A DNA stretch of 64,000 bases from Betaproteobacteria bacterium (GTDB lineage Bacteria; Pseudomonadota; Gammaproteobacteria; Burkholderiales; SG8-41): the NCBI GenBank assembly GCA_016868035.1, contig VGID01000016.1, forward strand, positions 1 through 64,000, written 5' to 3'. Below the pieces are notes generated by a model. The model did not search any database and was not told where the DNA came from. It saw only the letters and a list, made by a program, of their open reading frames with translations. Positions 11,643 through 63,817 of the stretch are shown here, piece after piece. The position numbers were made by a program, and so were the translations under genes. Numbering within the stretch: the first letter of the stretch is position 1; each line of letters opens with the position of its first letter.

Positions 11643-11770
11643 TACTACTCCCGACAACCGCGCGCGCACGCCGTTCCGCTGCCCGGCATCCGATATGAAA
11701 TCAGCATATCTTGGCTGTGCATTTTTCCGTTCACCATTCCCAATTCACCATTCACCGCCTCCAAGCGGCG

Positions 11771-11810
11771 CCTAGGAGCTTGTCGCGCTCAAGTCCGACA
11801 AGCTCCTAGG
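11771..11810. terminator. Perfect 15-bp-stem hairpin overlapping the otsB stop codon
   Basis: CCTAGGAGCTTGTCG-CGCTCAAGTC-CGACAAGCTCCTAGG; otsB stop TAG (11808-11806) lies inside the stem. Confidence 0.7.
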
Positions 11811-12600
11811 CCGCGCCGGAGCGCTCGCGCCAGCGCCGGAAAAACGCGAGCAGCTCGCGCGGCGGGCGGATCCACACGTCGGCCCGCGTCTCGCGCAGCT
11901 CGGGGCGGACCAGCACCGCGAGTCCCTGCAGCTTCACCAAGGCAAAAGCATCCTCGTCGGTGAGATCGTCGCCGAGGTACGCGACCGACGCCCCGCCCGG
12001 CGTCTCCGAAAGCACGGTCTTCACCGCGTGCTGCTTGTTGAATCCCAACGCGCGCAGCTCGAGCCCTCCGTCGAAGCCGAGCAGCTCGACCCCGCCCGCG
12101 CCCGCGAGCTCACCCCAGGCGCGCTGCGCGCCCTCGCGCACCTTCGCCACCGCCAGCGCCGGCAACCCGCGCCAGTGCAGCGCCACGGCTGCCGGCTTGA
12201 TTTCGATACGCGCGCCGTCGCGCAGCAGCTCGCGCGCACGCTCCTGCGCCTGCGCGAGCCGCTCGCGAATCTCGTTTCCCGGGTCCGCGACGTGACGGCT
12301 CCCGTCGGGCAACAGCCGCTCCCATCCATGCGTGCCCCACAGCTCGGGGCGCCGGCGCCACGGCAGCAGGGGCAGCAGGTCATCGAGCTTGCGCCCGCTC
12401 ACGATCACCACCCGCGTGCCGCCGCCGTCCATGAGACTTTCGAGCTCTTCGCCCACGCCGGGATACGGAAACGCGCGCTCGGGACGCACGACGAAAGGAG
12501 CGAGCGTGCCATCGTAATCGAGCAGCAGCACCCGTGTGCGCGCTTGCGCCAGATTCTCGAAAAAAGCGTCGAGATCAACGGCCGGGCTGAGCACGCGCAT
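11806..12600 (-). CDS. otsB: Trehalose-6-phosphate phosphatase
   Basis: HAD motif LLDYDGTLAPFVVRPERA, AVKTVLSE, YLGDDLTDEDAFALV; start at MRVLSPAVDLDAFF. Confidence 0.9.
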   Translation of the reverse strand: MRVLSPAVDLDAFFENLAQARTRVLLLDYDGTLAPFVVRPERAFPYPGVGEELESLMDGGGTRVVIVSGRKLDDLLPLLPWRRRPELWGTHGWERLLPDGSRHVADPGNEIRERLAQAQERARELLRDGARIEIKPAAVALHWRGLPALAVAKVREGAQRAWGELAGAGGVELLGFDGGLELRALGFNKQHAVKTVLSETPGGASVAYLGDDLTDEDAFALVKLQGLAVLVRPELRETRADVWIRPPRELLAFFRRWRERSGAA

Positions 12601-12912
12601 GGCGATCCGGCCCCGATTCAATCGCGATCCATTGCGCTCCCGGGGCAACGCTTCCCCGGGCGCCATCCGCGCGTATCGCGCGTTCCGGCATCGGAACAAA
12701 CGATATTGAAAAACGGCATCTCCCTTTGTGGACCGGACAAATTGGAACCGTGCGCGCGCAAACTTTCCCGGCGCGTCACGCGGCGATCTCCCTCGCCGCA
12801 AATACTACCTGTCGCGCAGGGAAAAGTGAGGACGGCTTGTTTGCCCTTGTCTATATTGTGGCAGTGCAGCGTGACGAAAGTTCCCGCGCATGCGCGCGCG
12901 AATTTCCGCACC

Positions 12913-13584
12913 TCAGCCCGCGACCAGCACGAGATGCACGCGGTAGGGACCGTGCGCGCCGAGCGTCACCGTCTGCTCGATGTCCGCGGTGCGCGACGGG
13001 CCGGAGATGAAATTCACCGCGCGCGGCAGCGCGGCTCCCGTGGAGCCGGGCGCCTCGCCTTCGGACCGCACGAGCTGCCACGCCTCCTCCATGCCGCGCA
13101 CGATGCGCGACGCGCGCACCACCGCGACGTGCGTCTCCGGCAGCAGGCTCACCGCAGCCGGCGTGGCGGGACCGGTCAGCGTCACGAGCGTACCGGTTTC
13201 CGCGATTGCGCAGTACGCGCCCGTGATCCCGACGAGATCGGTCTCGCGTGCTTCGCGCGCCTCCACTTCGATGCCGGCGGCCTTCCACTCGAGCCCCGCG
13301 AGCTCGCGCCAGCACACCGCCGCGAGCGGAAGCGTGTTCGACCGCAGGTAACGGGCGACAGCCGCCGGCACGGCGTCGAGCGCCTCCACCGTGTCCGTTG
13401 TGCTCGCCAGCGCTTCTGCGCGCTCGCGAAAGCGCGCGATGAGATCGCCGTCCACGCGCGGACGCGGTCCGGCGGGACGGGCGCGGATGTACGCCGCCAC
13501 CGCCTCGCGCTCCCCCGCGTCCGGCTGCTCGCCCTTGCCCTGCTGGGCGCGAATCCGCGCCAGAATATTTTCTCGTGCGCTCAT
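12913..13584 (-). CDS. lutC: LUD-domain lactate utilization protein LutC
   Basis: 223 aa; ITGAYCAIAETGTLVTLTGPATPAAVSLLPETHVAVV, FISGPSRTADIEQTVTLGAHGPYRVHLVLV. Confidence 0.88.
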   Translation of the reverse strand: MSARENILARIRAQQGKGEQPDAGEREAVAAYIRARPAGPRPRVDGDLIARFRERAEALASTTDTVEALDAVPAAVARYLRSNTLPLAAVCWRELAGLEWKAAGIEVEAREARETDLVGITGAYCAIAETGTLVTLTGPATPAAVSLLPETHVAVVRASRIVRGMEEAWQLVRSEGEAPGSTGAALPRAVNFISGPSRTADIEQTVTLGAHGPYRVHLVLVAG

Positions 13585-13589
13585 GTCAT

Positions 13590-13678
13590 ACGGTGATCAG
13601 TAAACGGTAATCGGTGAACGGTAGATCCGGCCACGCCCGGTGCTCGATTAAATCCGTTCACCGTTCACCGTTCACCCC
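13590..13678. repeat. Heptad-repeat inverted pair (7-nt family)
   Basis: Left CGGTGAT CAGTAAA CGGTAAT CGGTGAA CGGTAG; right arm reverse complement GGTGAAC GGTGAAC GGTGAAC GGAT; mmsA stop TGA is inside the right arm. Confidence 0.85.
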
Positions 13679-15198
13679 AGAGTGGGCATGTTGAGCCCCG
13701 GCGCCGGCGTATCCTGGTGCGGCCAGCGGGTGGTCACGGCCTTGGTGCGGGTGTAGAACTTCACGCCCTCGATGCCGTGCACGTGCAGGTCGCCGAACAG
13801 CGACGACTTCCAGCCGCCGAAGGAGTAGAAGGCGACCGGAACCGGGATCGGCACGTTCACCCCGACCATGCCGACCTCCACCTCGTTCTCGAAGCGCCGC
13901 GCCGCCCCGCCCGACTCGGTGAAGATCGCGACGCCGTTGGCGTAGGGGTTGCGATTAACGAGCGCGATCGCGTCCTCGAGCGTCGGAGTGCGCAGCACCA
14001 CGAGCACCGGCCCGAAGATCTCATCGCGGTAGATCTTCATCCCGGGCGTCACGTGGTCGAAGAGCGTGGTCCCGAGATAGTAGCCATCCTCGTACCCGGC
14101 CACTTTTGTTCCGCGACCGTCCACCACGAGCGCCGCCCCTTCCTTCACGCCCGCGTCGATGTAGCCCGCCACCTTGTCGCGGTGCTGCGCGGTGACGAGC
14201 GGGCCCATGTCCACGCCTTCCTTGTCGCCCGGACCGACCACGATCGCCTCGGCCCTTTTCTTGAGCAGCGCGACCAGCGGATCGGCCGCGGCGCCCACCG
14301 CCACCACCGCCGAGACCGCCATGCAGCGCTCGCCGGCCGAACCGTAACCCGCGCCCGCGAGCGCCTCGGCCGCGAACTCGAGGTCGGCATCGGGCAGCAC
14401 CACTGCGTGGTTCTTCGCTCCGCCCAGTGCCTGCACCCGCTTGCCGTTCCGCGCGCATGTCTCGTAGATGTGTCTTGCGACCGGGGTGGATCCGACGAAG
14501 CTCACCGCCGCGATGCCCGGATGACCGAGCATTGCGTCCACCGCCTCCTTGTCGCCGTGGACCACGTTCAGCACGCCGTCGGGCAGCCCCGCCTCCTTGG
14601 CGAGCTCGGCCATCCGCATCGAGGCCGAAGGCACCTTCTCCGAGGGCTTGAGCACGAAGGTGTTCCCGCACGCGATTGCCACCGGGAACATCCACAGCGG
14701 AACCATCACCGGGAAGTTGAACGGTGTCACGCCGGCGCACACGCCCACGGGCTGGCGCACCGTGTGGCAGTCCACGCCCGATCCCACGTTCTCCGAGTGC
14801 TCTCCCTTCAGCAGGTGCGGGATGCCGCACGCGAACTCGACCACCTCGATGCCCCGCTGCACCGAGCCCATCGCGTCGGGCAGCGTCTTGCCGTGCTCCT
14901 CGGTGACGAGCCGCGCGAGCTCCCTCTGGTTTGCCTGGAGTAGCGCGAGGAAACGCTGCATGACGCGCGAGCGCCTCAGGGGCGGCGTGTCGCGCCATTC
15001 CGGGAGCGCCGCCGCGGCCGCCTTGACCGCCGCGTCGATGTCGGCCGCGTTGCAGAACGGGACCTTGCGGATCGCCGCGCCGGTCGCGGGATTGGTGACC
15101 TCGCCGTGGCGCACGCTCGAGGACGGCTGCTTGCGTCCGCCGATCCACAGCGACACGCTCGCCACGTTCCGCGATCCGACGGAATTGTTCAATGCCAT
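13672..15198 (-). CDS. mmsA: CoA-acylating methylmalonate-semialdehyde dehydrogenase
   Basis: 508 aa ALDH; GVCAGVTPFNFPVMVPLWMFPVAIACGNTFVLKPSEKVPSA, GSAGERCMAVSAVV. Confidence 0.93.
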   Translation of the reverse strand: MALNNSVGSRNVASVSLWIGGRKQPSSSVRHGEVTNPATGAAIRKVPFCNAADIDAAVKAAAAALPEWRDTPPLRRSRVMQRFLALLQANQRELARLVTEEHGKTLPDAMGSVQRGIEVVEFACGIPHLLKGEHSENVGSGVDCHTVRQPVGVCAGVTPFNFPVMVPLWMFPVAIACGNTFVLKPSEKVPSASMRMAELAKEAGLPDGVLNVVHGDKEAVDAMLGHPGIAAVSFVGSTPVARHIYETCARNGKRVQALGGAKNHAVVLPDADLEFAAEALAGAGYGSAGERCMAVSAVVAVGAAADPLVALLKKRAEAIVVGPGDKEGVDMGPLVTAQHRDKVAGYIDAGVKEGAALVVDGRGTKVAGYEDGYYLGTTLFDHVTPGMKIYRDEIFGPVLVVLRTPTLEDAIALVNRNPYANGVAIFTESGGAARRFENEVEVGMVGVNVPIPVPVAFYSFGGWKSSLFGDLHVHGIEGVKFYTRTKAVTTRWPHQDTPAPGLNMPTLG

Positions 15199-15215
15199 CT
15201 CCTGGCTAGCATCCG

Positions 15216-15520
15216 AATCTCAAACCACAAAGGACACGAAGGGTTCCCGAATAAGAGCGCGCAACAAAATCAAGGAATAGTAACCGCAGATAAACGCCGA
15301 TACACGCCGATCCCTCGGGTGATGAGTGATGGGTGATGAGTGATCGGAGAAAGCCCGTTACTCGCATTTCCGATTACCCATTTCCGGTTTTTATCTGCGT
15401 TCATTTGCGTTCATCGGCGGTTTCGAGCTTTCTGGGTCTTCTTGATACAGGCTCTAAGCAAGCAAGAAGCGTTTCAACTTCTCGCCTTTCCTTTGTGTCC
15501 TTGGTGTCCTTCGTGGTTCA
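15216..15520. repeat. Three-layer nested inverted repeat module (9-nt, 10-nt and 7-nt period families)
   Basis: Outer AACCACAAAGGACACGAAGG / CCTTTGTGTCCTTGGTGTCCTTCGTGGTT; middle TAACCGCAGATAAACGCCGATACACGCCGAT / TTATCTGCGTTCATTTGCGTTCATCGGCGGTTT; inner GGTGATGAGTGATGGGTGATGAGTGATCGG / GTTACTCGCATTTCCGATTACCCATTTCCGG. Confidence 0.88.
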
Positions 15521-16927
15521 AGATTTTTGCATTTGCTGCGCATGCAGCTCGCGAAAGGTCTTGCCTTCTGCGGCCGGAAGATCGCGCCCCCGTGTCCAGC
15601 CGCCGCCAAAAGGAAGGTGGCGGATCGTGCCTTCTCTCCCGCCCATCGTTGCCAGCAGGCGCGCGCCGATACGAGAAATCATCGCATAGATCGCCGGCCG
15701 GCGCGCGGCCCAGCCCCACACCGCGAGACCCGCGCGCTCCGTCCATGGCTTGAGCTTGCGCTCGAACTGCCGCTCGCGCAGCTTGCGCATCAGGTCCGGC
15801 AGCGGGATTTTCACCGGGCACACCACGCCACACTGATTGCAGAACGTGGATGCGTTCGGCAGGTCGGGCGCGTTCTCGAGTCCGACGAACGTCGGGGTGA
15901 GGATCGAGCCCATCGGTCCGGGGTAGACCCAGCCGTAGGCATGTCCGCCCACGCTCTGGTAGACCGGGCAGTGGTTCATGCACGCTCCGCAGCGGATGCA
16001 GCGCAGCATCGCCTGCATGTCCCCGCCGATCAACTGCGTGCGCCCCGCGTCGACCAGGATCACGTGAAAGTGTTCGGGGCCGTCGAGGTCGCGCGCGCCC
16101 TTCACTCCGGTGGTGACCGAGACGTAATTGGAGATGCTCTGGCCGGTGGCCGAGCGCGGCAGCAACCGCATGAGAGTGGCGACGTCCTCAAGCGTGGGCA
16201 CTACCTTCTCGATGCCCGTCACCGCCACGTGCACGCGCGGGAGCGTCGTCACCATGCGGCCGTTGCCCTCGTTGGTGACGATCAGCGTGGACCCGGTCTC
16301 GGCCACGATGAAATTCGCCCCCGAGATTCCCATGTCCGCGGTCACGAAGCGCGGCCGCAGCATTTCGCGCGCCTCGCGCGTCAACTCCGCGATCCCGGTC
16401 TTGCGCGCCCGCCGGTGCTTCTCCGCGAAGAGATCCGAGACCTGCTCCCGGTTCTTGTGAACGACCGGGGCGATGATGTGCGAGGGCGGCTCCTTCGCGA
16501 GCTGCAGGATGTACTCGCCGAGGTCGGTCTCGATCACTTCCACGCCGGCGGCCTCGAGCGCCTCGTTCAGCGCGCACTCCTCGCTCACCATGGACTTCGA
16601 CTTGACGGCCCTGCGAACGCCGTGCGCGCGCGCGATCTCGCACACGATGCGGGAGACGTCCTCGCCGGTCTGCGCCCAGTGCACCACCGCGCCGCGCGCG
16701 CGCGCGTTGCGCTCAAACTCTTCCAGGTAGAGATCGAGATGGGCGAGCGCGCGGTCTCGGATCGCCGCGGCCGCGTCGCGGATGCTCTCGAAATTGTCGA
16801 GCTCCTTGACGCGCTCGGCGCGCCCGCGCACGAAATTGCCCTGCAGCTTGGCGAGCGCCTGCTGCAGGTTGCGGTCGGCGAGCTTCTCCTGCGCCCGCTG
16901 CTTGAATTGCACCGAGGCGATGTGCAT
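15518..16927 (-). CDS. lutB: LUD-domain iron-sulfur protein LutB
   Basis: 469 aa; IRCGACMNHCPVYQSVGGHAYGWVYPGPMGSILTP, FCNQCGVVCPVKIPLPDLMRKLR. Confidence 0.92.
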   Translation of the reverse strand: MHIASVQFKQRAQEKLADRNLQQALAKLQGNFVRGRAERVKELDNFESIRDAAAAIRDRALAHLDLYLEEFERNARARGAVVHWAQTGEDVSRIVCEIARAHGVRRAVKSKSMVSEECALNEALEAAGVEVIETDLGEYILQLAKEPPSHIIAPVVHKNREQVSDLFAEKHRRARKTGIAELTREAREMLRPRFVTADMGISGANFIVAETGSTLIVTNEGNGRMVTTLPRVHVAVTGIEKVVPTLEDVATLMRLLPRSATGQSISNYVSVTTGVKGARDLDGPEHFHVILVDAGRTQLIGGDMQAMLRCIRCGACMNHCPVYQSVGGHAYGWVYPGPMGSILTPTFVGLENAPDLPNASTFCNQCGVVCPVKIPLPDLMRKLRERQFERKLKPWTERAGLAVWGWAARRPAIYAMISRIGARLLATMGGREGTIRHLPFGGGWTRGRDLPAAEGKTFRELHAQQMQKS

Positions 16928-17024
16928 GCGCGTCAGGGTGAACGCCCGGGGGAGGCAGGAACCAGAGTGGCCGATTATATCGCATGCGCCAGCGGCATCC
17001 GCCGGCCCGCCCCACGTGCCATCC

Positions 17025-17882
17025 TCACCGACCCGGCACTCCGCGCCGGATCATGTAGATTCCGCTCGCAACCACGACGGCGGCGCCCGTCAGCATCCAC
17101 GCATCGGGCACTTCACCCCACACCAGGTACCCGATGAGGATCGCCCACAGCAGGCCGGTGTAATGGAACGGCGAAATCACCGCCGCGTGCCCCATGCGGA
17201 AGGCCTCGATCATCATGAAATGCGCGCTCGCGTTGAAGGCGCCGGCCGCCAGGTACCAGACAGCGCCGCGCACATCAACAGGCTGCCATCCCCACGGCAC
17301 CGTCGCCAGGCCCGCTGCCATGATCATCACGCCCGACCAGAACAGGATGGCGATCGATCTGTCGGTCCGCGTCAGCCGCCGGGTAAACGTGTCGCGCACC
17401 GCGTTGATCAATGCCGCACCCAGCGGCAGCAGGACGATCCACCCGAAGCCGCCGCCAGGGCGCACGATTAACAGGACCCCCACAAAGCCTGCGGCGATCG
17501 CTCCCCATTGGTGCGCGCTTACGCGCTCGCCGAGCATGGGCGCCGAGATTATCGCGACGAAGAACGGAGTCGCGAACAGGATGGCGAGAACGAACGAGAG
17601 CGGCAGCAACATCAGGCTCCACAGGACCAGCACGGCGCCGGCGGCGAACAGCAGCGCCCGCAGGAACTGCCCGCCGCGATAGACCGGCCGCAACGAGTAG
17701 AGGCCGCTCGTCGCCAGCGCGTACGGCAGGATGAACAGGAACGCCGCGAGTTGGCGCAGGCAGATGACCTGGCCGATCGGGTAGCTCTGAGCGAGGTGCT
17801 TCGAAACCGCGTCGTTGAGCGTGAGCAATCCCGCGCTCGCCACCATCGCGAGTATCCCGTGCAGCGGAGACGGCGCAGTCAT
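17025..17882 (-). CDS. DMT-family (EamA) transporter
   Basis: 285 aa, ten-TM hydrophobic pattern, EamA-like sequence. Confidence 0.8.
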   Translation of the reverse strand: MTAPSPLHGILAMVASAGLLTLNDAVSKHLAQSYPIGQVICLRQLAAFLFILPYALATSGLYSLRPVYRGGQFLRALLFAAGAVLVLWSLMLLPLSFVLAILFATPFFVAIISAPMLGERVSAHQWGAIAAGFVGVLLIVRPGGGFGWIVLLPLGAALINAVRDTFTRRLTRTDRSIAILFWSGVMIMAAGLATVPWGWQPVDVRGAVWYLAAGAFNASAHFMMIEAFRMGHAAVISPFHYTGLLWAILIGYLVWGEVPDAWMLTGAAVVVASGIYMIRRGVPGR

Positions 17883-18007
17883 TGCATGCGGAGCCGGCGC
17901 ACGGTCCCGCCAAAGAATGATAGCGGGCGGCTCATACGGCCCCTAATCGTCGTCGACGCAACATCCGCACATCTCGCGCTGATACTTCCGGCGGTTGAAT
18001 CTGGCTG

Positions 18008-18046
18008 ATCGCCTGACCCGAATCTTCTTGGCGTCTTGGCGGTTCA
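18008..18046. repeat. Single-arm 9-nt-period module fused to lutA stop
   Basis: Minus strand TGAACCGCCAAGACGCCAAGAAGATTCGGG; lutA stop is its first TGA. Confidence 0.75.
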
Positions 18047-18805
18047 GCTATTGACCTTGCCCGCGCTCGTTTTCGGTTCCACTTCAGCGCCAACCAGCAC
18101 TTCCGCGACGTGCAGCACGCGGGTCTTCGCATCGCCGCGGCGGCGCAGCCTGCCTTCGATATTGAGCATGCAGCCGAGATCCCCGAGCACCACGGCGTCC
18201 GCCCCGCTCGCCGCGATATTCACGCATTTGCGCTCGGCGACGTGCGTGGAGATCCCGCCGAATTTCACGGAGAAGGTGCCGCCGAAGCCGCAGCACGTCT
18301 CGGCCTCCTCCATCTCCTTGAGCCTGAGACCCTCCACCCTCGCAAGCAGCGCCCGCGGCTGCGCTTTCACCCCGAGCTCGCGCAGCCCCGAGCACGAGTC
18401 GTGGTAGGTAACCGTCCCCATGAACTTCCCCGGCACGCGCTCGAGCTTTGCCACGTTCACGAGAAAGTCGGTCAGCTCATACGTACGCCCGCACAGGTTG
18501 CGGATTCGCTCCGGTTCATCCGGAGCCTCGTGAAACAGCTCCGGATAGTGGGTGCGGATCATCCCGGCGCAGGAGCCCGACGGGGCCACGATGTAATCGC
18601 AGCCTTCGAACTCGTCGAGGAGCTTGCGCGCCAGCGCCTTCGCCGCCGCACGGTCGCCGGAGTTGTAGCCGGGCTGGCCGCAGCAGGTCTGCGACCGGGG
18701 CACCACCACTTCGCAGCCCGCCGCCTCGAGCAGCCGCAGCGCCGCGAACCCGATGCGGGGTCGCATCAGGTCGACGAGGCAGGTCACGAACAGTCCGACG
18801 CGCAT
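18044..18805 (-). CDS. lutA: (Fe-S)-binding protein LutA / CCG-domain oxidoreductase
   Basis: 253 aa; RSQTCCGQPGYNSGDRAAA, ETCCGFGGTFSVKFGGIS, DLGCMLNIEGRLRR. Confidence 0.92.
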   Translation of the reverse strand: MRVGLFVTCLVDLMRPRIGFAALRLLEAAGCEVVVPRSQTCCGQPGYNSGDRAAAKALARKLLDEFEGCDYIVAPSGSCAGMIRTHYPELFHEAPDEPERIRNLCGRTYELTDFLVNVAKLERVPGKFMGTVTYHDSCSGLRELGVKAQPRALLARVEGLRLKEMEEAETCCGFGGTFSVKFGGISTHVAERKCVNIAASGADAVVLGDLGCMLNIEGRLRRRGDAKTRVLHVAEVLVGAEVEPKTSAGKVNS

Positions 18806-18972
18806 GCGTGGTATCGGGGACAGAGGAAGTCACCCACGGACGCCGGGCATGGCCGGCGCATGCGGTCGCAGGGCACGCGCAATTATAGCCCACGCACGCC
18901 CCGGCAACGCGTAACCCTGGCCCGTGCACGGGCGTCGCGAAGCCGCGATGCTTGCGCGCCCGCGCAGGCGGC

Positions 18973-19134
18973 TTACTGCTTGTGGGCCTGCGGGCGCCCT
19001 CCTTTGATATCGCGCCCGGACGATTCGCCGCCGCTCCCGCTCCCGCGGTGGCGCATGGCCACGTGGTGGACGAGCCCGACGACCAACACGATCAGCACGA
19101 TCGCGAGTATGGAAAGTACGTACGTGAAAGTCAT
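18973..19134 (-). CDS. 53-aa single-TM small protein (absent from ORF track)
   Basis: GGAGGAGAAATC-ATG; MTFTYVLSILAIVLIVLVVGLVHHVAMRHRGSGSGGESSGRDIKGGRPQAHKQ*; one hydrophobic helix plus basic tail. Confidence 0.6.
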   Translation of the reverse strand: MTFTYVLSILAIVLIVLVVGLVHHVAMRHRGSGSGGESSGRDIKGGRPQAHKQ

Positions 19135-19279
19135 GATTTCTCCTCCGTGTTGGCGGGGAAAGGAGCCGGAGCATTGCGCACCGGCCGGCGGCTACTGTTT
19201 GGTCAGCCCCGCGCACGCGCAAGTTCCCCGCGCGCTGCGAGCGGAAATCGGCGCGGGAATGTCGCGCGCGCAGATACGG

Positions 19280-20476
19280 TCAGGACAGCCGCTCGCACGC
19301 GCGCGCGATGCGCCGGCAGCCTTCCTTCACCTCGTCGAGCGACGCGCCGTAGGAGAGGCGGAAATAGGGCGACATACCGTACGCCGCGCCATGCACCAGC
19401 GCGACGCCCTCGGCGTCGAGCACGTAGAGCACAAAATCCTCGTCGGTGCGCAACGCTTGGCCCTGCGGCGTGCGCCTGCCCATGATCTGCGCGCACGAAG
19501 CAAAGACGTAGAACGCCCCTTCCGGGCTGGAACAGGAGATGCCCGGTGCCGTGTTGAGAATCTTCACCGCCGCGTCGCGGCGCTCCCGGAAGATCTCCGT
19601 GCGCCCCTTCACGTATTCCTGCGGGCCGGTCAGCGCCGACACGGCGGCGGCCTGGCTGATCGAGGACGGATTATTCGTGCTCTGCGACTGGAGGACGGCC
19701 ATCGCGCCGATCAGCGCCTTCGGGCCGCCCGCGTAGCCGATGCGCCACCCGGTCATCGAGTAGGCCTTGGACACACCGTTTACCGTCAGCGTGCGCTCGC
19801 AGAGCTGCGGCTCGACTTCGGCGATGGTCGCGAATTCGAATCCGTCATAGATGATGTGCTCGTAGATGTCGTCGGCGAGCACCCACACGTGAGGATGCCG
19901 CAGCAGGACCGCGGCGAGCGCCTTCAACTCCTCGCGCGTATAGGTCGCCCCGCTCGGGTTGTTCGGCGAGTTGAGGATCAGCCAGCGCGTGCGCGGGGTG
20001 ATGGCGCGCTCGAGATCCTCCGGCAGCAGCTTGAACTTGTGCCCGGGTGCGCACGGAACCTCGACGGGCACGCCTTCCGCGAGCACGGTCATGTCGGTGT
20101 ACGACACCCAGTACGGCGCCGGCACGATTACCTCGTCTCCCGGGTCGAGGGTAGCCATGAGCGCGTTGTAGATGACCTGCTTGCCGCCGGTTCCGACCGA
20201 GATCTCATCCGGTGCGTAGGCGAGGCCGTTCTCGCGCCTGAACTTGGCGCACACCGCCTCCTTCAGCTCGATCGTGCCGTCGACGTTCGTGTAGCGCGTA
20301 TCGTCGCGGCGCATCGCCTCGTAGGCGGCTTCCTTCACGTGCTCCGGCGTGGGAAAGTCCGGCTCGCCCTGGGTGAGACTGATGATGTCATGGCCCTGTG
20401 CCTTGAGCTCGCGGGCGCGCTGCGCCGCAGTGCTCGACGCCGAGGGTTTGATGCGTCCGATACGCGATGCGAGCAT
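19280..20476 (-). CDS. Class I/II pyridoxal-phosphate aminotransferase (aspartate aminotransferase type)
   Basis: 398 aa; LILNSPNNPSGATYTREELKALA, GVSKAYSMTGWRIGYAGGPKALI. Confidence 0.93.
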   Translation of the reverse strand: MLASRIGRIKPSASSTAAQRARELKAQGHDIISLTQGEPDFPTPEHVKEAAYEAMRRDDTRYTNVDGTIELKEAVCAKFRRENGLAYAPDEISVGTGGKQVIYNALMATLDPGDEVIVPAPYWVSYTDMTVLAEGVPVEVPCAPGHKFKLLPEDLERAITPRTRWLILNSPNNPSGATYTREELKALAAVLLRHPHVWVLADDIYEHIIYDGFEFATIAEVEPQLCERTLTVNGVSKAYSMTGWRIGYAGGPKALIGAMAVLQSQSTNNPSSISQAAAVSALTGPQEYVKGRTEIFRERRDAAVKILNTAPGISCSSPEGAFYVFASCAQIMGRRTPQGQALRTDEDFVLYVLDAEGVALVHGAAYGMSPYFRLSYGASLDEVKEGCRRIARACERLS

Positions 20477-20600
20477 GGACCGGTCCTTCCACCGGGAATA
20501 ACGGGCGCGCGCGTCACCGCCTCGTCGGACGTCGCACGTCCGGACGCGGTCGCGGCCAAAGCGAGCAATGATACCCGATCTCCGCAGCGCGGCCGTGCGC

Positions 20601-22142: not shown

Positions 22143-22188
22143 ACGATCTTCCCTTTATCGAGCATTTCCTGATTGCGCGCCGTGAAGA

Positions 22189-23145: not shown

Positions 23146-23322
23146 CACTTGATTCACCTCCTGTGCAGAGGGATTAGGGAGCATTCGATTTGGTGAGCAC
23201 TCTGCGCGCATTGCTTCCTGCGCGGCGCGCAGCGGTCATTATTGCACAAACGTCGTGCTCCTCCGCCGTGCTACGATGGGACACAATCGCTACTGTGCCC
23301 GACGCGCATCGCACAACGCCGA

Positions 23323-24675: not shown

Positions 24676-24692
24676 CGATTAACACGCACGCG

Positions 24693-25763: not shown

Positions 25764-25783
25764 GATGCGGTGCCGCGGCGCGG

Positions 25784-29705: not shown

Positions 29706-30278
29706 ATGCTGACAAATACCACCGATTCGACAGATTGGAAGATACTCGGCGTGCTGCAGGACCATGCGCGCATCTCGAACGTGGAGCTCGCGCGCGCGGT
29801 CCATCTCTCCGCCTCGCCCTGCCTGAACCGCGTGCGCGCCCTCGAGCGCAGCGGCATCATCAGCCGCTACGTGACGCTGCTCGATCCGGCGAGGATCGGG
29901 CTCACGGTGACGGTGTTCATCCAGGTGAGCCTGGAGAAGCAGGTGCAAACGGCGCTCGGCACCTTCGAGCGCGCGGTGCTGGGGCGCGATGAGGTGATGG
30001 AATGCTACCTGATGACCGGGGACGCCGATTATCTGCTGCGCGTGGTGGTCGCGGATGTCCCGGCGCTCGAGCGCTTCATCGTGGACTTCCTCGCGCGCAT
30101 CCCCGGCGTGGGCAACATCAAGTCGAGCTTCTCGCTGAAGCAGGTGAAGTACAAGACCGCGCTGCCGCTGCCGCAAGCTGCCGCCGGCAAGTCCGCGCGG
30201 CCGGCCCCCGGGACTAAGAAACGGTATCAAAGGGCCGAAAACCTCGAAACCGCAGATGAACGCAAACCAGAGCCGTGA
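29706..30278 (+). CDS. Lrp/AsnC-family transcriptional regulator
   Basis: 190 aa; [49 protein letters not shown]-terminal residues ([13 protein letters not shown]) are encoded by repeat module. Confidence 0.9.
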
Positions 30279-30386
30279 ATAGTGAATGGTGAATCGAAAA
30301 GTCCAAGATACGCCCCTGGCGGAGCCAACTGTCTCACGATTCGCGATTTACGTTTCACGAATCCGATCGGCGTGTATCGGCGGTAA
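30247..30386. repeat. Two-layer nested inverted repeat module
   Basis: Outer AAACCGCAGATGAACGCAAA / GATCGGCGTGTATCGGCGGT; inner GTGAATAGTGAATGGTGAATCG / CACGATTCGCGATTTACGTTTCACGAATCCG. Confidence 0.75.
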
Positions 30387-33081: not shown

Positions 33082-33120
33082 CTGCGTGAGCCGTGATTCG
33101 TGAGTCGTGACTCGAGGCGG
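33082..33120. repeat. Single-arm heptad module following the iclR stop
   Basis: CTGCGTGAGCCGTGATTCGTGAGTCGTGACTCGAGGCGG. Confidence 0.65.
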
Positions 33121-33139
33121 TCTCAAAATCCAAAATAGA

Positions 33140-33299
33140 TTAACCGCAGATAATCGCCGATACACGCCGATCAAGCCACGGTGAGGCGTGAACGGTAAGC
33201 AGTAAGCCATACATACCTGAGAATGACGTTCTCCTCCTTACCGCTTGCCGCTCACTGCCTGCCGCATTCATCTGCGTCCATCTGCGTTCATCGGCGGTT
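33140..33299. repeat. Two-layer nested inverted repeat module
   Basis: Outer TTAACCGCAGATAATCGCCGATACACGCCGATCAA / TCATCTGCGTCCATCTGCGTTCATCGGCGGTT; inner GTGAGGCGTGAACGGTAAGCAGTAAGC / TTACCGCTTGCCGCTCACTGCCTGCC. Confidence 0.88.
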
Positions 33300-34796: not shown

Positions 34797-34886
34797 CTGG
34801 AGCGGCGTAGCCCGCGACGGGTGACTCGTGACTGGCGAGGCGTGTAAAGTAACCCGCGCGACAATCATGCCCAGAGGAGATCCATC

Positions 34887-36866: not shown

Positions 36867-36903
36867 TTTTCCGCTTCGATTTCCGGGTTTCGAGTCTCGA
36901 GTG
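36867..36903. repeat. Single-arm heptad module
   Basis: Minus strand CTCGAGA CTCGAAA CCCGGAA ATCGAAG CGGAAAA. Confidence 0.5.
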
Positions 36904-52872: not shown

Positions 52873-52921
52873 CGATGGTTCCTAGAGTGCAAGCGGCGCG
52901 AACCGCTTTGATGGCGTATTG

Positions 52922-52940
52922 TGATCACATAGTGTGATCA
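52922..52940. promoter_or_regulatory. Putative GntR/FCD operator 2
   Basis: TGATCA CATAGTG TGATCA upstream of the enolase-superfamily gene. Confidence 0.7.
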
Positions 52941-53053
52941 TGTAAGGCGGGGCTGTCAAGCGGCCCGGCGGCGCAGACCGCGGCGGGTCGAGCAGCCATG
53001 GTCGTCGATTCAGTAAACTCGAGTAGCCATCCGTTACCACCGCCGGCCCGACT

Positions 53054-54657: not shown

Positions 54658-54741
54658 GCTCGTCGGGATCGTCTCGGTGTGGCTTGTGAACAGGCTGCCG
54701 CCCTCCGCGCCGGGCCACAGCCGGCGCGGCGGGGGCGATCG

Positions 54742-55731
54742 CTACATTCCCAGCAACGAATTGGTGAAATAAACCGGAACTGATTTCGGGGCTTCGATTT
54801 CGCCCACGGACTTGAGCAATTCCAGAGTGTCCGCGATGAGCTTCTCTTCGATCCAGCCGATCGGTTTGCCGGGCACCACCGGGATGGCCTCCACGGTTGC
54901 CTTGACCTGGGCGGTTACGACCGACGCACTCGGGCTGCCCGACCAGTGCTTGATCATCATGTTTGCGGCTGCAGCCGGATCTTTCCTCGAATCGACTACC
55001 GCATCGCCCACCGCCTTGAGGAGTTTTCTCAACGCTTCGGGCTTTTTGGCGATGATCGCGTCGCTCGAGACGAGCGCCATGCCCGGAACCGCCAGTCCGA
55101 ACTTGTCCATCTCGAGCACGGCGAACTTGATGCCCTCTTTCTCCCTCAGGATCGGCAAGTCGTTGGTTTGATAGACGCTCACGACATCGACCTTCCCCTG
55201 CATGAAGGAGGGAACACGCGCCTGGGCGTGCATCTGGACCCTGTTCACCTTGCCACAATCAACCCCGTTTTTTCTGCAGAAGGCGTCAAGATAAGACGTG
55301 CCGGTTTCGCCAATCGCCGTTGCGATGGACTTTCCTTCGAGATCCTTCGGCACCCGGACCGGCTTTTCCGGCTTGGAAATCAGCGCCATCGGCGTGACCG
55401 GATGGTACAGCGCGATCAGTTTGACCGGCATGCCCTTGCTGATTGCCGTTATGGCGAAGATGCCGGGAAGGAGCACGGCGTCTTCCTGTCCCTGCAGCAG
55501 GGCTCCGAGCGCGGCCTGCGAGCCCGCACCCTCGCCCAATCTGACGCTGATGCCTTCGCGGGAAAAATATCCCTTTTCCTGGGCCACGTACATATGAGCG
55601 TATTCGCCCTTCAGGCGCCAGCTGAAACGAACGTTGACCTGCTCCTGCGCAAATGCCGACGCACTTACAAGGCCATACGAGATGACGCCAGACACGACCG
55701 CAGAAAACCATGCAAGCTTCTTGGTGATCAT
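54742..55731 (-). CDS. ABC transporter substrate-binding protein (NMT1/SsuA-like)
   Basis: VNVRFSWRLKGEYAHMYVAQEKGYFSREGISVRLGEGAGSQAALGALLQGQEDAVLL. Confidence 0.93.
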   Translation of the reverse strand: MITKKLAWFSAVVSGVISYGLVSASAFAQEQVNVRFSWRLKGEYAHMYVAQEKGYFSREGISVRLGEGAGSQAALGALLQGQEDAVLLPGIFAITAISKGMPVKLIALYHPVTPMALISKPEKPVRVPKDLEGKSIATAIGETGTSYLDAFCRKNGVDCGKVNRVQMHAQARVPSFMQGKVDVVSVYQTNDLPILREKEGIKFAVLEMDKFGLAVPGMALVSSDAIIAKKPEALRKLLKAVGDAVVDSRKDPAAAANMMIKHWSGSPSASVVTAQVKATVEAIPVVPGKPIGWIEEKLIADTLELLKSVGEIEAPKSVPVYFTNSLLGM

Positions 55732-55854
55732 GGCTACGCTCCATTCAAAGGAAAATCGGTAAGAGACCCGGAAAAAGACTTGTGGACGACGATGCCCGCC
55801 CGTGATATTTCACGGACGCTGCATGAGCTGTGGCGCCTCATCTCGTGCCATGTC

Positions 55855-55873
55855 CGATCACATATCGTGATCA
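55855..55873. promoter_or_regulatory. Putative GntR/FCD operator 3
   Basis: CGATCA CATATCG TGATCA upstream of the ABC substrate-binding gene. Confidence 0.65.
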
Positions 55874-55898
55874 CGATTTCACCGCTTGTCAAGGGTGA

Positions 55899-58925
<3,027 letters not shown>

Positions 58926-58928
<3 letters not shown>

Positions 58929-59087
58929 ACCGCCAGGGCGCCAAGACCGCCAAGCAGGAGTTAACGAAGCGGGATGCGGGGCGATGGCAGACTCGACGAC
59001 GCGCCTCGGGTTGAAAAAGTTGTTTCATCCCCCATCTGGTCGATATGTTCCCGTTGCCTCGGCGTTCTTGGCGCCCTGGGGGTTCGT
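58926..59087. repeat. Inverted repeat module (9-nt GCCAAG family) between purB and trx gene
   Basis: TGAACCGCCAGGGCGCCAAGACCGCCAAG / CCTCGGCGTTCTTGGCGCCCTGGGGGTTCG; purB stop is the first TGA. Confidence 0.85.
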
Positions 59088-59101
59088 TCGAGTCTGTCGC
59101 G

Positions 59102-59962
59102 ATGTCTGAACACGTAATCAACGCCAACACCACGAATTTCGAGCAGGTCGTCATCGGGGGCTCGAATAAGACCCCGGTGCTGGTGGACTTCTGGGCGCCG
59201 TGGTGCGCGCCCTGCCGCACGTTGACGCCGGTGCTGGAGAAGCTCGCGGCCGAGTATGCGGGCCGCTTCACGCTGGTGAAGATCAACTCCGACGAGAACC
59301 AGGCGCTCGCCGCGCAGTTCGGCGTGCGCGGCATCCCCAACGTGAAGGCCTTCGTGAACGGCGAGCTGGTGGACGAGTTCTCCGGCGCCCTGCCCGAAGC
59401 GCGCGTGCGCGAATTCATCGAGCGCGTGGTGCCCTCGCCCGCCGACGAACTGCGCCTGGCGGCGATGGAAGCCTACCGCGCGGGCGGCAAGCCCGAGGAA
59501 GCGCTTGCGCAGCTTGCCCGGGTGCTGGAGCTCGATTCCAGGAACGATTCCGCGCGCATGGACCGCGCCGAGATCCTGCTCGACCTTGCCCGGATCGAGG
59601 AGGCGCGCGAAGTGCTGGTGTCACTGGGCGGGCTCTCGCAACTCGGCGAGCGCGCCAAGACGCTCACTGCGCGGCTCGATCTCGCCGCGGGCGCGGCGGG
59701 CGCCGGCGATCGGGACTCGCTCAAGGTCCGCATCGCGCGCGACGCAAACGATCTCGATGCGCGTCTGCAGCTTGCGAACCTGCACGTCGCGGGCAAGGAC
59801 TATCGTGCAGGGCTCGAGCAGTTGCTGGAGATCGTGAAGCGCGACCGCACGTTCCGGGACGACATCGCGCGCAAGACCATGCTCCAGATCTTCAGCGTGC
59901 TCGGCGGCGAGAACGAGCTGGTGGGCGAATACCGCCGGCGCCTTGCCGGCGCGATGTATTAA
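59102..59962 (+). CDS. Thioredoxin-domain co-chaperone (CnoX/YbbN-like, TPR C-terminus)
   Basis: VLVDFWAPWCAPCRTLTPVLEKLAAEYAGRFTLVKINSDEN followed by TPR-like helices. Confidence 0.9.
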   Translation: MSEHVINANTTNFEQVVIGGSNKTPVLVDFWAPWCAPCRTLTPVLEKLAAEYAGRFTLVKINSDENQALAAQFGVRGIPNVKAFVNGELVDEFSGALPEARVREFIERVVPSPADELRLAAMEAYRAGGKPEEALAQLARVLELDSRNDSARMDRAEILLDLARIEEAREVLVSLGGLSQLGERAKTLTARLDLAAGAAGAGDRDSLKVRIARDANDLDARLQLANLHVAGKDYRAGLEQLLEIVKRDRTFRDDIARKTMLQIFSVLGGENELVGEYRRRLAGAMY

Positions 59963-59977
59963 GAGCCGATAACGAGA

Positions 59978-60137
59978 TCAAGAAATCCTGGCGGCAGATC
60001 AAATCCGATACACCCCAATCAAGATCGGGCACGGCGTGAGCAGTAAGCAGTGAGCGGTAAAAAAAACTGTAATTGACATCTCCCTACCGCTTACCCCTTA
60101 CCGCTTACCGTCTTGTTTACCCGCGTCCATCGGCGGC
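59978..60137. repeat. Two-layer nested inverted repeat module between convergent trx and dedA genes
   Basis: Inner GTGAGCA GTAAGCA GTGAGCG GTAA / reverse complement GGTAAGC GGTAAGG GGTAAGC GGTA; outer degenerate GGCAGATCAAATCCGATACACCCCAATC / GTTTACCCGCGTCCATCGGCGGC. Confidence 0.8.
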
Positions 60138-60776
60138 TCCGGATCGCGCGCGGTGGCGCACGTACTCGAACACCGCCGGCATGATCGAGAGAATCACGAT
60201 GCCGACCAGGACCAGCGTCAGGTTCTGCTTGACCACCGGCAGGTTGCCGAAGAAATACCCGGCGTAGGCGAGCGAGACCACCCACAGCACCGCGCCGCCC
60301 ACGTTGTAGGCGAGGAAACGGCTGTAGGTCATGGCCCCGATGCCGGCGACGAAAGGCGCGTAGGTGCGGATGATCGGCACGAAGCGCGCGATAACGATGG
60401 TCTTGCCGCCGTGGCGCTCATAGAAGTTGTGCGCGCGCGCGAGGTACTCCTTGTTCAGCCACAACGAGTCTTCGTAGTGGAACACCTTGGGACCAACGTA
60501 ATGGCCGAACGCGTAATTGACGGTATCACCGAGGATCGCCGCGATGATCAGAAGCACCACCAGCAGATGCACGTCCATGCCCCCCGCGGCCGCGACCGCG
60601 CCCGCCGCGAAGAGCAGCGAGTCGCCCGGCAGAAACGGCGTCACCACAAGTCCGGTCTCGCAGAAGACGATCGTGAAGAGAATGAGGTAGATCCAGAGCC
60701 CGTATTTCGCCACGAGCGAGGCGAGATGCTGATCGAGATGGACCAGGATGTCGAAGAAGGTGGATACCAGCTCCAC
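60117..60776 (-). CDS. DedA-family membrane protein
   Basis: 219 aa; YLILFTIVFCETGLVVTPFLPGDSLLFAAGAVAA, FVPIIRTYAPFVAGIGAMTYSRFLAYNVGGAVLWV. Confidence 0.94.
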   Translation of the reverse strand: MELVSTFFDILVHLDQHLASLVAKYGLWIYLILFTIVFCETGLVVTPFLPGDSLLFAAGAVAAAGGMDVHLLVVLLIIAAILGDTVNYAFGHYVGPKVFHYEDSLWLNKEYLARAHNFYERHGGKTIVIARFVPIIRTYAPFVAGIGAMTYSRFLAYNVGGAVLWVVSLAYAGYFFGNLPVVKQNLTLVLVGIVILSIMPAVFEYVRHRARSGAADGRG

Positions 60777-60788
60777 GCGGCCCCCGCC

Positions 60789-61727
60789 TCAGACCGCGCC
60801 GGACTCGGCTTCCTTCTTCTCCGGCTTGGCAAGGTCCTCGCGCGACGCGCCCAGGTACATGGCCAGCGGGCACGCCACCAGGACCGACGAGTAGATGCCG
60901 AACAGGATCCCGATGGTGAGCGCGAGCGCGAAGTAAAACAGCGTCTCGCCGCCGAAGATCAGCATCGCGCACACCATGAGCTGGGTCGAGAGGTGGGTGA
61001 TGATGGTGCGCGACATCGTCGCCGTGATCGCGTGATCCATCACCTGCGCCACCGTGAGGCTGCGCATCCTGCGGTTGCGGAAAGTCTCGCGCACCCGGTC
61101 GAACACCACTACCGACTCGTTCACCGAGTAGCCGAGCACCGCGAGCACCGCGGCGAGCACCGGCAGCGAGAACTCCCACTGGAAGATCGAGAAGAAGCCG
61201 ACGATGATCACCACGTCGTGCAAGTTGGCGACGATCGCCGACACCCCGAACTTCCACTCGAAGCGCACCCAGAGGTAGAACACGATGCCGAGGCACACGA
61301 ACAGCAGCGCGAGCGCGCCCGCTTCGAAGAGCTCGCGGCCGACCTGCGGCCCCACGAACTCGACGCGCCGCATCTCGACCTTCGCATCGTCCTTCCTGAG
61401 CTCCTGCACCACGAGCTCGGAGAGCTTCGCGCTGGTGACCCCCTGCTTCACGGGCAGGCGGATCAGCACGTCGCGGGACGTTCCGAAGTTCTGCACGGCG
61501 GCATCGCTGAATCCGATGCGTGCCATCGCCTCCCGGATCTTGCCGAGCTCGGCGGGGTGCGGGTAGGCCACCTCCATCACCGTGCCGCCGGTAAAATCCA
61601 CCCCCCAGTTGAGCCCGCGCGTTGCGAGCGAGCCCACTGCGATCACGAAGGTGAGGAGCGAGATCACGTTGAACAGCAGCGCGTGCCGCATGAACGGGAT
61701 GTCGCGCTGGATGCGGAACCATTCCAT
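60789..61727 (-). CDS. secF: Protein translocase subunit SecF
   Basis: MEWFRIQRDIPFMRHALLFNVISLLTFVIAVGSLATRGLNWGVDFTGGTVMEV; VVFDRVRETFRN. Confidence 0.95.
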   Translation of the reverse strand: MEWFRIQRDIPFMRHALLFNVISLLTFVIAVGSLATRGLNWGVDFTGGTVMEVAYPHPAELGKIREAMARIGFSDAAVQNFGTSRDVLIRLPVKQGVTSAKLSELVVQELRKDDAKVEMRRVEFVGPQVGRELFEAGALALLFVCLGIVFYLWVRFEWKFGVSAIVANLHDVVIIVGFFSIFQWEFSLPVLAAVLAVLGYSVNESVVVFDRVRETFRNRRMRSLTVAQVMDHAITATMSRTIITHLSTQLMVCAMLIFGGETLFYFALALTIGILFGIYSSVLVACPLAMYLGASREDLAKPEKKEAESGAV

Positions 61728-61745
61728 CGCTACGCTCCCGCTTCG

Positions 61746-61848
61746 CGAAGTCGAAAGTCGGAAGGCGAAAGGCGGAAGTAGCAGGCGCCCGCTGCGCGGG
61801 AAGTCCTTTCGACTTTCGACTTTCGACTTTCGAATTTCGACTTCATCG
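61746..61848. repeat. Heptad inverted pair between secD and secF
   Basis: CGAAAGT CGGAAGG CGAAAGG CGGAAGT / reverse complement GTCGAAA TTCGAAA GTCGAAA GTCGAAA GTCGAAA GG; secD stop TGA at the module edge. Confidence 0.88.
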
Positions 61849-63705
61849 TTTGGCCTGCGCCGGCTTCCAGACCTGCCCGATCGAGACGCGATCGAGGCGC
61901 CGGCGGCTGCCATAGTAGTAGTTGACCATCGCGCGGGAGACCACCACCGCGCTGAAGATGGAGGTGAGGATGCCCAGGCACAGCACCACCGCGAAGCCCT
62001 TCACCGGGCCGGAGCCGAACGCGAACAGCGCCACTCCCGCGATCAGCGTGGTGATGTTCGAATCGAGAATCGTGCCCCACGCGCGCTCGTAGCCCGCGGT
62101 GATCGCGGCCTGCGGGGTGTTGCCGGCGCGCAGCTCCTCGCGTATGCGCTCGTTGATCAGCACGTTGGCGTCGATCGCCATGCCGATGGTGAGCGCGATG
62201 CCGGCCATCCCGGGCAGCGTCAGCGTCGCCTGCAGCAGCGAGAGCAGCGCGACCAGGAACAGCACGTTGGCGGCGAGAGCGATGATCGAGATCAGCCCGA
62301 ACAGCACGTAGTAAGCGACCATGAAGACCGCGATCGCGCCGAAGCCGTACCAAGTGGACTGGAAGCCGATCCGGATGTTCTCCGCTCCGAGCGACGGCCC
62401 GACGGTGCGCTCCTCTATGATTTCCATCGGCGCGGCGAGCGCGCCCGCGCGCAGCAGCAGCGCCACGTCATGCGCTTCCTGCGTGTTCATGCGCCCGCTG
62501 ATCTGAACGCGGCCGCCGCCGATTTCCTGGCGGATCACCGGCGCCGTCACCACCTCGCCCTTGCCTTTCTCGAAGAGCAGGATCGCCATGCGCTTGCCCA
62601 CGTTCTCGCGCGTGACCTGCTGGAAGATGCGCGCGCCGGCGCCGTCGAGGCTGATGTGCACCGCCGGCTCGCCGGTCTGGGAGTCGAATCCCGGCTGCGC
62701 GTCGTTGATGCGGTCGCCCGTGAGCACCACCTGTTTACGCACCAGGATCGGCGAGCCGCCGCGCTCGACGTAGACCTCGGTGTTGAACGGCAGCTGGCCC
62801 GCGAGCGCCGCCTGCATCACGGTCGGGTTGTTCGAGTTCTCGTCGTCCACCATCCGCACTTCGAGCGTCGCGGTGCGCCCCAGGATGTCCTTCGCCTTGG
62901 CCGTGTCCTGCACGCCGGGCAGCTGCACCACGACACGGTCGCTGCCCTGCTGCTGGATGATCGGCTCGGCCACGCCGAGCTCGTTGACCCGGTTGCGCAG
63001 CGTGGTGATGTTCTGCTGCAGCGCGAAGTCCTGGGTGCGCCTCTGCGCGTCGGGCCTGAGCGTGGCAAGGATGCGGTACTCGTTCGCTTCGTCCGTGGCC
63101 CGCAGCTCGAGATCCGGCATCGCGCGCGTGAGCTCGTCGAACGCCTTCTCGCGCATCGCCCGGTCTCGGAAGCGCACGGTGATCGCCTGGCCCTCGCGCG
63201 CGACCCCCGCGTACTGGATGCGCCTGTCGCGCAGCGAATTGCGGATGTCGCTCGAGAAGGTCTCCGCCTTCTTCGCGAGCGCCGCTTTCATGTCCACCTG
63301 CAGCAGGAAATGCACGCCGCCGCGCAGATCGAGGCCGAGGTACATCGGCAGCGCCCCGATCGCGGCCAGCCAGCGCGGGCTCGCGGGCAGCAGGTTGAGT
63401 GCCACGATGTAGTCGTCTCCGAGCTCCGCCTGCAGCAGGTCCTTGGCCTTGATCTGGATATCGGTGTCCGAGAAACGCGCCTTGACGCTGGTCGGGTCGA
63501 GGAAGACGCCATTCGCAGTGATGTTGGCTTTCTTGAGGCCAGCCTCGACGCGCTCCATCAGCGCCGTATCGGCCCTCAGCGTGGCCCGCAGCGGGGAGAC
63601 CTGCACGGCCGGGACCTCCCCGAAAAAGTTGGGCAGCGTGTAGAAGAGCCCGAGCACCACCGAGAGAACGACGATGGTATTTTTCCAGAGCGGAAAGCGG
63701 TTCAT
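61843..63705 (-). CDS. secD: Protein translocase subunit SecD
   Basis: 620 aa; MNRFPLWKNTIVVLSVVLGLFYTLPNFFGEVPAVQVSP; LGLDLRGGVHFLLQVDM. Confidence 0.97.
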   Translation of the reverse strand: MNRFPLWKNTIVVLSVVLGLFYTLPNFFGEVPAVQVSPLRATLRADTALMERVEAGLKKANITANGVFLDPTSVKARFSDTDIQIKAKDLLQAELGDDYIVALNLLPASPRWLAAIGALPMYLGLDLRGGVHFLLQVDMKAALAKKAETFSSDIRNSLRDRRIQYAGVAREGQAITVRFRDRAMREKAFDELTRAMPDLELRATDEANEYRILATLRPDAQRRTQDFALQQNITTLRNRVNELGVAEPIIQQQGSDRVVVQLPGVQDTAKAKDILGRTATLEVRMVDDENSNNPTVMQAALAGQLPFNTEVYVERGGSPILVRKQVVLTGDRINDAQPGFDSQTGEPAVHISLDGAGARIFQQVTRENVGKRMAILLFEKGKGEVVTAPVIRQEIGGGRVQISGRMNTQEAHDVALLLRAGALAAPMEIIEERTVGPSLGAENIRIGFQSTWYGFGAIAVFMVAYYVLFGLISIIALAANVLFLVALLSLLQATLTLPGMAGIALTIGMAIDANVLINERIREELRAGNTPQAAITAGYERAWGTILDSNITTLIAGVALFAFGSGPVKGFAVVLCLGILTSIFSAVVVSRAMVNYYYGSRRRLDRVSIGQVWKPAQAKR

Positions 63706-63712
63706 GCTTCGC

Positions 63713-63817
63713 AGAGAGGGGTAAGGAGAGAGGAGAGAGGGGTTTGTCGGCGACTACCTGGCTTGCGGTTCCTGACGCCTCTCACCTTTCGCCTTTCGCC
63801 TTTCGCCTTTCGTTTCA
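63713..63817. repeat. Heptad inverted pair between yajC and secD
   Basis: GAGAGGGGTAAGGAGAGAGGAGAGAGGGG / reverse complement GTGAAAC GAAAGGC GAAAGGC GAAAGGC GAAAGGT GAGAGGC; yajC stop TGA opens the module. Confidence 0.8.

Follow-up and report, generated by a model that had tools for sequence, protein, structure and literature searches.

Phased inverted repeats between the genes of a betaproteobacterium as probable gene-less derivatives of two minimal mobile-element families

What are the short, strictly phased repeats that face each other in inverted orientation between the genes of a betaproteobacterial genome, and to which system do they belong? The question is raised by a stretch of 64,000 nt from Betaproteobacteria bacterium (GenBank assembly GCA_016868035.1, contig VGID01000016.1, positions 1 to 64,000), called the window throughout, in which an original prediction had seen a single repeat system without an owner. 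We find two families instead: S23 elements carry a PF05635 gene between 7-nt (in some cases 8-nt) arms, and GxxExxY elements carry a PF13366/TIGR04256 gene between 8-, 9-, or 10-nt arms. The modules of the window are very probably gene-less, often nested derivatives of these two families of minimal mobile elements. There is equally good reason to think that a full element is ~400–600 bp long and consists of a purine-rich tandem array, one small gene, and an inverted complementary array.

The link between arms and genes is seen at several distant loci, where an arm pair encloses a gene of ~130 codons with the motif GxxExxY. Most PF13366 genes detected by profile search in relatives proved, when their flanks were read, to lie between 8-, 9-, or 10-nt arms, and the window's own genome has one such gene with 10-nt arms (C1:253501) and another with CGCCAAGA arms (C9:16274). 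On the supposition that such arms come with gene-bearing elements, the 7-nt arms were predicted to have a gene of their own as well; PF05635 (S23/IVP) was chosen for the test, S23 proteins being known from insertions in rRNA that have hairpin ends. PF05635 genes are flanked by inverted heptamer arrays, with GATTGAG, GATCAAG, GTGATTA, GTAATGG, GCGTGAG, and GTTTCGA among the units.

We quantified this association in a set of 97 GxxExxY genes and 76 S23 genes, all distinct, taken from the relatives and from 44 genomes of other phyla. Genes with both flanks available were scored for at least one flank periodic at P ≤ 0.01, and open reading frames (ORFs) from the same loci served as controls. A significantly periodic flank is present for 72 of 75 S23 genes and 69 of 95 GxxExxY genes, compared with 12 of 71 control ORFs, many of which themselves lie in element-rich genomes. 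S23 flanks have a period of 7 or 14 on 98 sides and of 8 on 20, and never of 9 or 10 at this threshold. The periods of GxxExxY flanks are mostly 8, 9, and 10 (or 16/20), with one of 14 and none of 7; two rows read period 7 at P ≤ 0.02.

Mapped onto the GxxExxY protein tree, arm period changes 12 times, compared with 32.1 times when labels are shuffled (0 of 200 shuffles). The 10-nt arms are restricted to one half of this tree, which spans archaea, cyanobacteria, and proteobacteria. Since the period follows the protein tree across hosts, the arm is tied to the protein and not to the host. The two arms of an element also match one another: among 7-nt elements, the arm-to-arm distance is 1.25 within an element versus 3.62 between elements. 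The sequence of the unit drifts between elements and its period is conserved, and a single library of units for all modules was therefore rejected. We also rejected Shine-Dalgarno sites in the left arm as the cause of the purine-first polarity, as they show no excess over composition (35 of 63 S23 elements, 32.3 expected; 33 of 75 GxxExxY elements, 28.1 expected). Element genes show a weak excess of same-direction placement relative to host genes (62 versus 32), based on crude ORF calls and not relied on here. In four loci (L272, L280, L284, and L289), a 10-nt unit variant, CACAGATNAA, replaces CGCAGATNAA, and some elements hold both variants within one array.

Insertion at orthologous sites is most legible in cyanobacterial plasmids. 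An S23 element occupies one shared site in plasmid C of Trichormus variabilis ATCC 29413 and in plasmid1 of Scytonema NIES-4073, and this site is empty in Tolypothrix PCC 7712, Fremyella, Nostoc linckia, and Nostoc carneum. The Trichormus insert is 428 bp long and has GTAAT on both sides, a 5-nt duplication, within flanking sequence that is 97.5%–98% identical to the four empty plasmids; the Scytonema copy is exactly 14 nt (two units) shorter. Plasmid E of Nostoc C052 (L429, NZ_CP040277.1) has a decayed S23 remnant at the Trichormus insertion site, which is a full element caught in the course of becoming gene-less. Cyanobacterial plasmids also provide a case in which one gene-less module lies in the loop of another, older one; two plasmids have the inner module and others lack it. 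The suggestion that the repeats form a mobile system is thus borne out for gene-bearing relatives, both by orthologous presence and absence and by the 428-bp insertion with its duplication.

The change in length by whole units is also what would be expected if the arrays were home-grown, arising in microsatellite fashion through replication slippage and template switching at hairpins with no mobile element involved, and the observation that units differ between orthologous sites while arms match within an element fits that explanation too. However, slippage accounts neither for the specific tie to two gene families, nor for an arm period that follows the protein tree, nor for arms and gene inserted together as a clean 428-bp unit. 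It covers the upkeep of the arrays rather than their origin, and as a full explanation we consider it highly improbable.

The window has no GxxExxY (PF13366) gene, and its modules contain no S23 ORF; all of them sit between protein genes. We scored 11 intervals, in which phased intergenic units had been proposed, against dinucleotide-preserving shuffles at lags 5–14. Eight are individually significant, and three are not (34811–34840, P = 0.18; 36867–36903, P = 0.07; 58926–59087, P = 0.17), although inverted CGCCAAG arms are legible by eye in the last of these. Over the whole window there are 11 strong runs at lags 7–10, compared with 0.4 in shuffled sequence. The 7-, 9-, and 10-nt unit families stand; what had been read as a second 9-nt family at 18008 has a period of 8 (interval 18008–18046, P = 0.013 overall). 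The purine-first inverted arms form hairpin folds on either strand, with z-scores of −3.3 to −5.9. The features are as follows, with the strand given where one applies.

11728–11768, unstranded: single 7-nt run of TTCACC type, a remnant arm (lag 7, P = 0.003).
13590–13676, unstranded: gene-less 7-nt S23-type module standing alone, with a CGGTGAA-type left arm and a TTCACCG right arm (interval 13590–13678: lag 7, P = 0.003; fold z −3.3 on the plus strand and −5.0 on the minus strand).
15223–15242, plus strand: left arm, AACCACAAAGGACACGAAGG, of an outer 9-nt GxxExxY-type module (phase test and 9-nt pattern search).
15252–15457, unstranded: MITE-like envelope (MITE, miniature inverted-repeat transposable element) around a 10-nt module, with inverted ends TAAGAGCGCGCAACAAAATCAAG ... 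GATACAGGCTCTAA.
15281–15311, plus strand: left arm of the 10-nt GxxExxY-type module (10-nt pattern search and phase test).
15317–15387, unstranded: inner 7-nt S23-type module, GGTGATGAGTGATG ... CCGATTACCCATTTCC (phase test).
15390–15421, minus strand: right arm of the 10-nt module.
15489–15518, minus strand: right arm, TCCTTTGTGTCCTTGGTGTCCTTCGTGGTT, of the outer 9-nt module (phase test and 9-nt pattern search).
18022–18045, minus strand: single arm of an 8-nt CGCCAAGA GxxExxY-type module (P = 0.003 at lag 8); this unit also makes up the arms of the GxxExxY gene at C9:16274.
30247–30386, unstranded: 10-nt module holding a 7-nt GTGAATG/TTTCACG module (period 7 significant, period 10 weak).
33085–33114, plus strand: single-arm 7-nt run, CGTGAGCCGTGATTCGTGAGT (phase test).
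33142–33299, unstranded: 10-nt module holding a 7-nt GGTAAGC module (phase test and fold; interval 33082–33299 significant at periods 7 and 10).
34811–34840, plus strand: weak, non-significant 7-nt single-arm scrap.
36867–36903, plus strand: weak, non-significant 7-nt single-arm scrap.
58926–59085, unstranded: CGCCAAGAC GxxExxY-type module whose inverted arms are degenerate (non-significant alone).
59960–60140, unstranded: MITE-like left end, degenerate 10-nt arms, and inner 7-nt AGTAAGC module (period 7 significant; z −5.9).
61748–61843, unstranded: 7-nt GTCGAAA module alone, at the junction upstream of secD in a yajC-secD-like setting (lag 7; z −5.0).
63713–63812, unstranded: 7-nt module alone, on the other side of secD (lag 7 significant).

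Periods of 7, 9, and 10 nt are all significant in the interval 15216–15520, and its whole-interval RNA fold has a z-score of −4.8. Its layers read best, from the outside in, as a 9-nt GxxExxY-type module, the MITE-like piece at 15252–15457, a 10-nt GxxExxY-type module, and a 7-nt S23-type module. Nesting of 7-nt within 10-nt within 9-nt modules, proposed as a general order, is confined to this interval; the order follows no rule, as 9-nt modules lie inside 10-nt ones elsewhere in the genome. The sole match in an Rfam scan of the window is a fragment of a group II intron (RF02001, D1-D4-3; positions 1–131, minus strand), cut by the window edge, and no known RNA family matches the modules.

The junctions around secD show how gene-less modules vary among congeners. 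Upstream of secD, where the window has the GTCGAAA module, the junction is empty in three species (G001, G002, and G003), whereas in G004, G005, G007, and G009 it carries modules that have a period of 7, 8, or 9 nt and a different sequence, so that the comparison of congeners yields empty, 7-, 8-, and 9-nt states at one place. On the other side of secD, most congeners have a 7-nt module, with differing unit sequences. From such comparisons we infer that gene-less copies are mobile in the window's own genome, the congeners being ~80% identical and the exact borders illegible. The presence of the secD-side module in most congeners, together with strong predicted RNA folds and short intergenic gaps, might instead indicate that selection maintains the gene-less modules as domesticated regulatory hairpins, which would act as terminators, attenuators, or RNA-processing sites. 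Yet unit, family, and presence vary freely at one junction, and many copies are nested or one-armed, which makes this explanation unlikely.

Copy number was assessed in the whole genome (3.9 Mb in 127 contigs; 834 kb was sampled) with the reversed pattern as control. The 10-nt pattern AACCGCNGATNNACGCNGAT has 360 matches versus nine for the control, and the matches are frequently facing pairs 70–250 bp apart; the 9-nt AACCAC pattern has 43 versus 0. Within the genus, genomes have from six to ~400 10-nt matches, and across the wider phylum mostly none. The exact 30-nt pattern is present in Methanoperedens, other Methanosarcinales, cyanobacteria, planctomycetes, Verrucomicrobia, NC10, Acidobacteria, Chloroflexi, and more. 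Among relatives, 19 genomes have both 10-nt modules and GxxExxY genes, five only modules, seven only the gene, and 29 neither, an association that is confounded by kinship. Inside 10-nt loops we find 19 7-nt runs, where 1.1 would be expected across all DNA; nesting was rejected as evidence of loop targeting, since intergenic confinement and amplified composites could explain much of this excess. On contig C24 of the window's genome (L070:1093–1322), a long right arm of CTTACCG units stands opposite a much shorter left arm, which suggests a recent one-sided expansion.

A subset of the 10-nt modules has conserved inverted ends (GAGCCSGTAWCAAAAAGACC-like) outside the arms, with CTTAG-like sequence at both borders; 15252–15457 and 59960–60140 in the window belong to it. 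These ends are what would be expected if copies in this genome owed their spread mainly to an ordinary DNA transposase for which a MITE, with the arms carried incidentally inside, was the substrate. Against this, the genome has 14 copies of the envelope end at ≤3 mismatches versus the 360 arm matches, envelope-free modules also differ in presence among congeners, and we found neither an autonomous or parent insertion sequence (IS) with envelope ends nor an empty site for the envelope subset. We regard transposase-driven spread as the main route as rather unlikely.

The proteins bear on how full elements might move. The two GxxExxY proteins of the window's own genome match the TIGR04256/PF13366 profile with 142 and 132 bits (cut-off 35). 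Their family has the nuclease residues D73, E83xK85, and Q97xxxY101, with D73 and Y101 invariant and E83, K85, and Q97 each in at least 90% of sequences. A structural model (predicted local distance difference test, pLDDT, 96.8) has as its nearest PDB entry Cas4 SSO0001 (4ic1; template-modeling score, TM, 0.56), with LHK-Exo and MGME1 also matched, and the protein is predicted to be a Cas4-like PD-(D/E)XK nuclease of the RecB/Cas4 type. S23 (PF05635) matches the solved XCC0516 protein 2gsc and, weakly, Avd of diversity-generating retroelements (DGRs) by profile (1e-8); S23 and Avd also resemble each other in structure (PMC10053308). The S23 protein is a four-helix bundle of the DGR-Avd-like kind.

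GxxExxY resembles the single-strand nucleases Cas4, LHK-Exo, and MGME1, and imperfect inverted arms would extrude as hairpins. The elements might therefore travel as single-stranded DNA rather than via RNA, with the GxxExxY nuclease cutting the hairpins, on the model of IS200/IS605 or of repetitive extragenic palindromic (REP) sequences and their RAYT transposases. Peel-and-paste transposition of the IS200/IS605 type leaves no duplication such as the 5 nt at the cleanest site, and S23 elements share this architecture although they encode no nuclease; this route is doubtful, if less so than the transposase one.

GxxExxY genes also occur in settings beyond those described so far. In Sphingomonas parapaucimobilis (L423, NZ_CP155749.1), one lies between fabD and fabG, 33 and 2 bp from its neighbors, and a similar insertion is found upstream of a carB-like gene in Wenzhouxiangella (L102) and in a betaproteobacterium (L141). 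All four GxxExxY genes on viral contigs of IMG/VR (L440–L443) appear with inverted arms of 9/10-nt type, and viral contigs are a possible vehicle for the spread of the elements; GxxExxY genes were not found in GenBank phages.

Among known systems, the closest in anatomy to the 7-nt elements is the intervening sequence (IVS) of 23S rRNA in Coxiella and Leptospira, which likewise has complementary ends around one ORF, a PF05635/TIGR02436 gene. The Coxiella IVS is also similar in size (428 nt) and has tandem heptamers of variable copy number beside its ORF: two or three GACAGAT units are reported to precede it directly, strains are reported to differ by whole heptamers, and RNase III is reported to cut at the first heptamer (PMC4990558). 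Gene-bearing 7-nt elements likewise have an S23 ORF inside and complementary stem ends with heptamers, and the S23-type elements are related to rRNA IVSs. They differ in lying in gaps between protein genes, in being multicopy and nested, and in that gene-less copies far outnumber full ones. The 7-nt type thus has a known relative with published heptamers. The GxxExxY type appears undescribed in the open literature, an earlier report in a subscription journal being possible. No paper on GxxExxY arms or mobility was found in the open literature, in which two papers mention the name, neither of them on this subject (subscription papers were outside the search), and a string search of published literature found the repeat units not printed as bacterial repeats.

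Short tandemly repeated repetitive (STRR) sequences are intergenic tandem heptamers of heterocystous cyanobacteria, and the S23 elements on Nostoc and Trichormus plasmids carry heptamers of this kind. Both STRR and TAACTGA repeats resemble the present modules in being intergenic tandem heptamers with a patchy distribution across distant phyla. The TAACTGA units of Beggiatoaceae were described as direct repeats, with no gene, no mobility, and no mention of S23, and the heptamers reported in Beggiatoaceae, cyanobacteria, and Bacteroidetes likewise had no gene assigned to them (PMC4679880). REP/REPIN-RAYT systems and bacterial MITEs are likewise short, gene-less, hairpin-forming, and dispersed, and the present modules would similarly need a protein in trans. 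Unlike REP/REPIN-RAYT, they conserve the period of an array whose unit sequence drifts rather than a fixed palindrome, and their associated proteins are others; the original view that they do not resemble REP, enterobacterial repetitive intergenic consensus (ERIC), or clustered regularly interspaced short palindromic repeat (CRISPR) sequences holds. The likeness to DGRs is that of S23 to Avd; neither a reverse transcriptase nor template/variable repeats were noticed beside the elements, although no systematic search was made.

These comparisons suggest a route by which such elements might persist and spread. An element in a host operon would be co-transcribed and fold as a long hairpin, probably cut by RNase III as in the Coxiella S23 IVS, and such cutting would keep the cost of an element small whether it lies between transcripts or within one; the same anatomy in a different place is the main support for this step. 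The encoded protein may recognize its own arms and help copying to a new site through a staggered cut, to which the 5-nt duplication at the best site points, perhaps by way of the excised RNA. Gene-less copies would be mobilized in trans or be carried along by the MITE-like envelope. The period would be kept by descent, and the unit sequence would drift through slippage and arm-to-arm copying.

Several observations weigh against the derivation of the modules from mobile S23 and GxxExxY elements. The 5-nt duplication occurs at one site only, two other pairs of filled and empty sites giving 0–3 nt, and 26 of the 95 GxxExxY genes have no significantly periodic flank. A complete single-contig genome of the same order (G057) has 74 10-nt matches and neither a PF13366 nor a PF05635 gene, and G003 and G008 also have many 10-nt modules without a GxxExxY gene; such module-rich genomes show that the presence of modules does not at present depend on the gene. 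In a search for rRNA matches, all 40 S23 loci fell outside rRNA, and the IVS placement in helix 9, 25, or 45 of 23S rRNA is thus absent.

The phased 7- to 10-nt intergenic repeats found from Methanoperedens to Nostoc were previously ownerless, and the link between period and protein turns them into a testable class of elements. It also offers a likely role for two widespread uncharacterized protein families, S23 outside rRNA and GxxExxY, and a way in which rRNA genes could have acquired their intervening sequences. The pairs of empty and filled plasmid sites in culturable cyanobacteria can be used for experiments. Tentatively, the elements may represent a new minimal class in bacteria and archaea, one small protein plus a self-complementary array whose excised hairpin RNA is copied by a trans-acting reverse transcriptase; if true, such a class with an RNA route would also explain the cyanobacterial heptamers and how rRNA intervening sequences arose.

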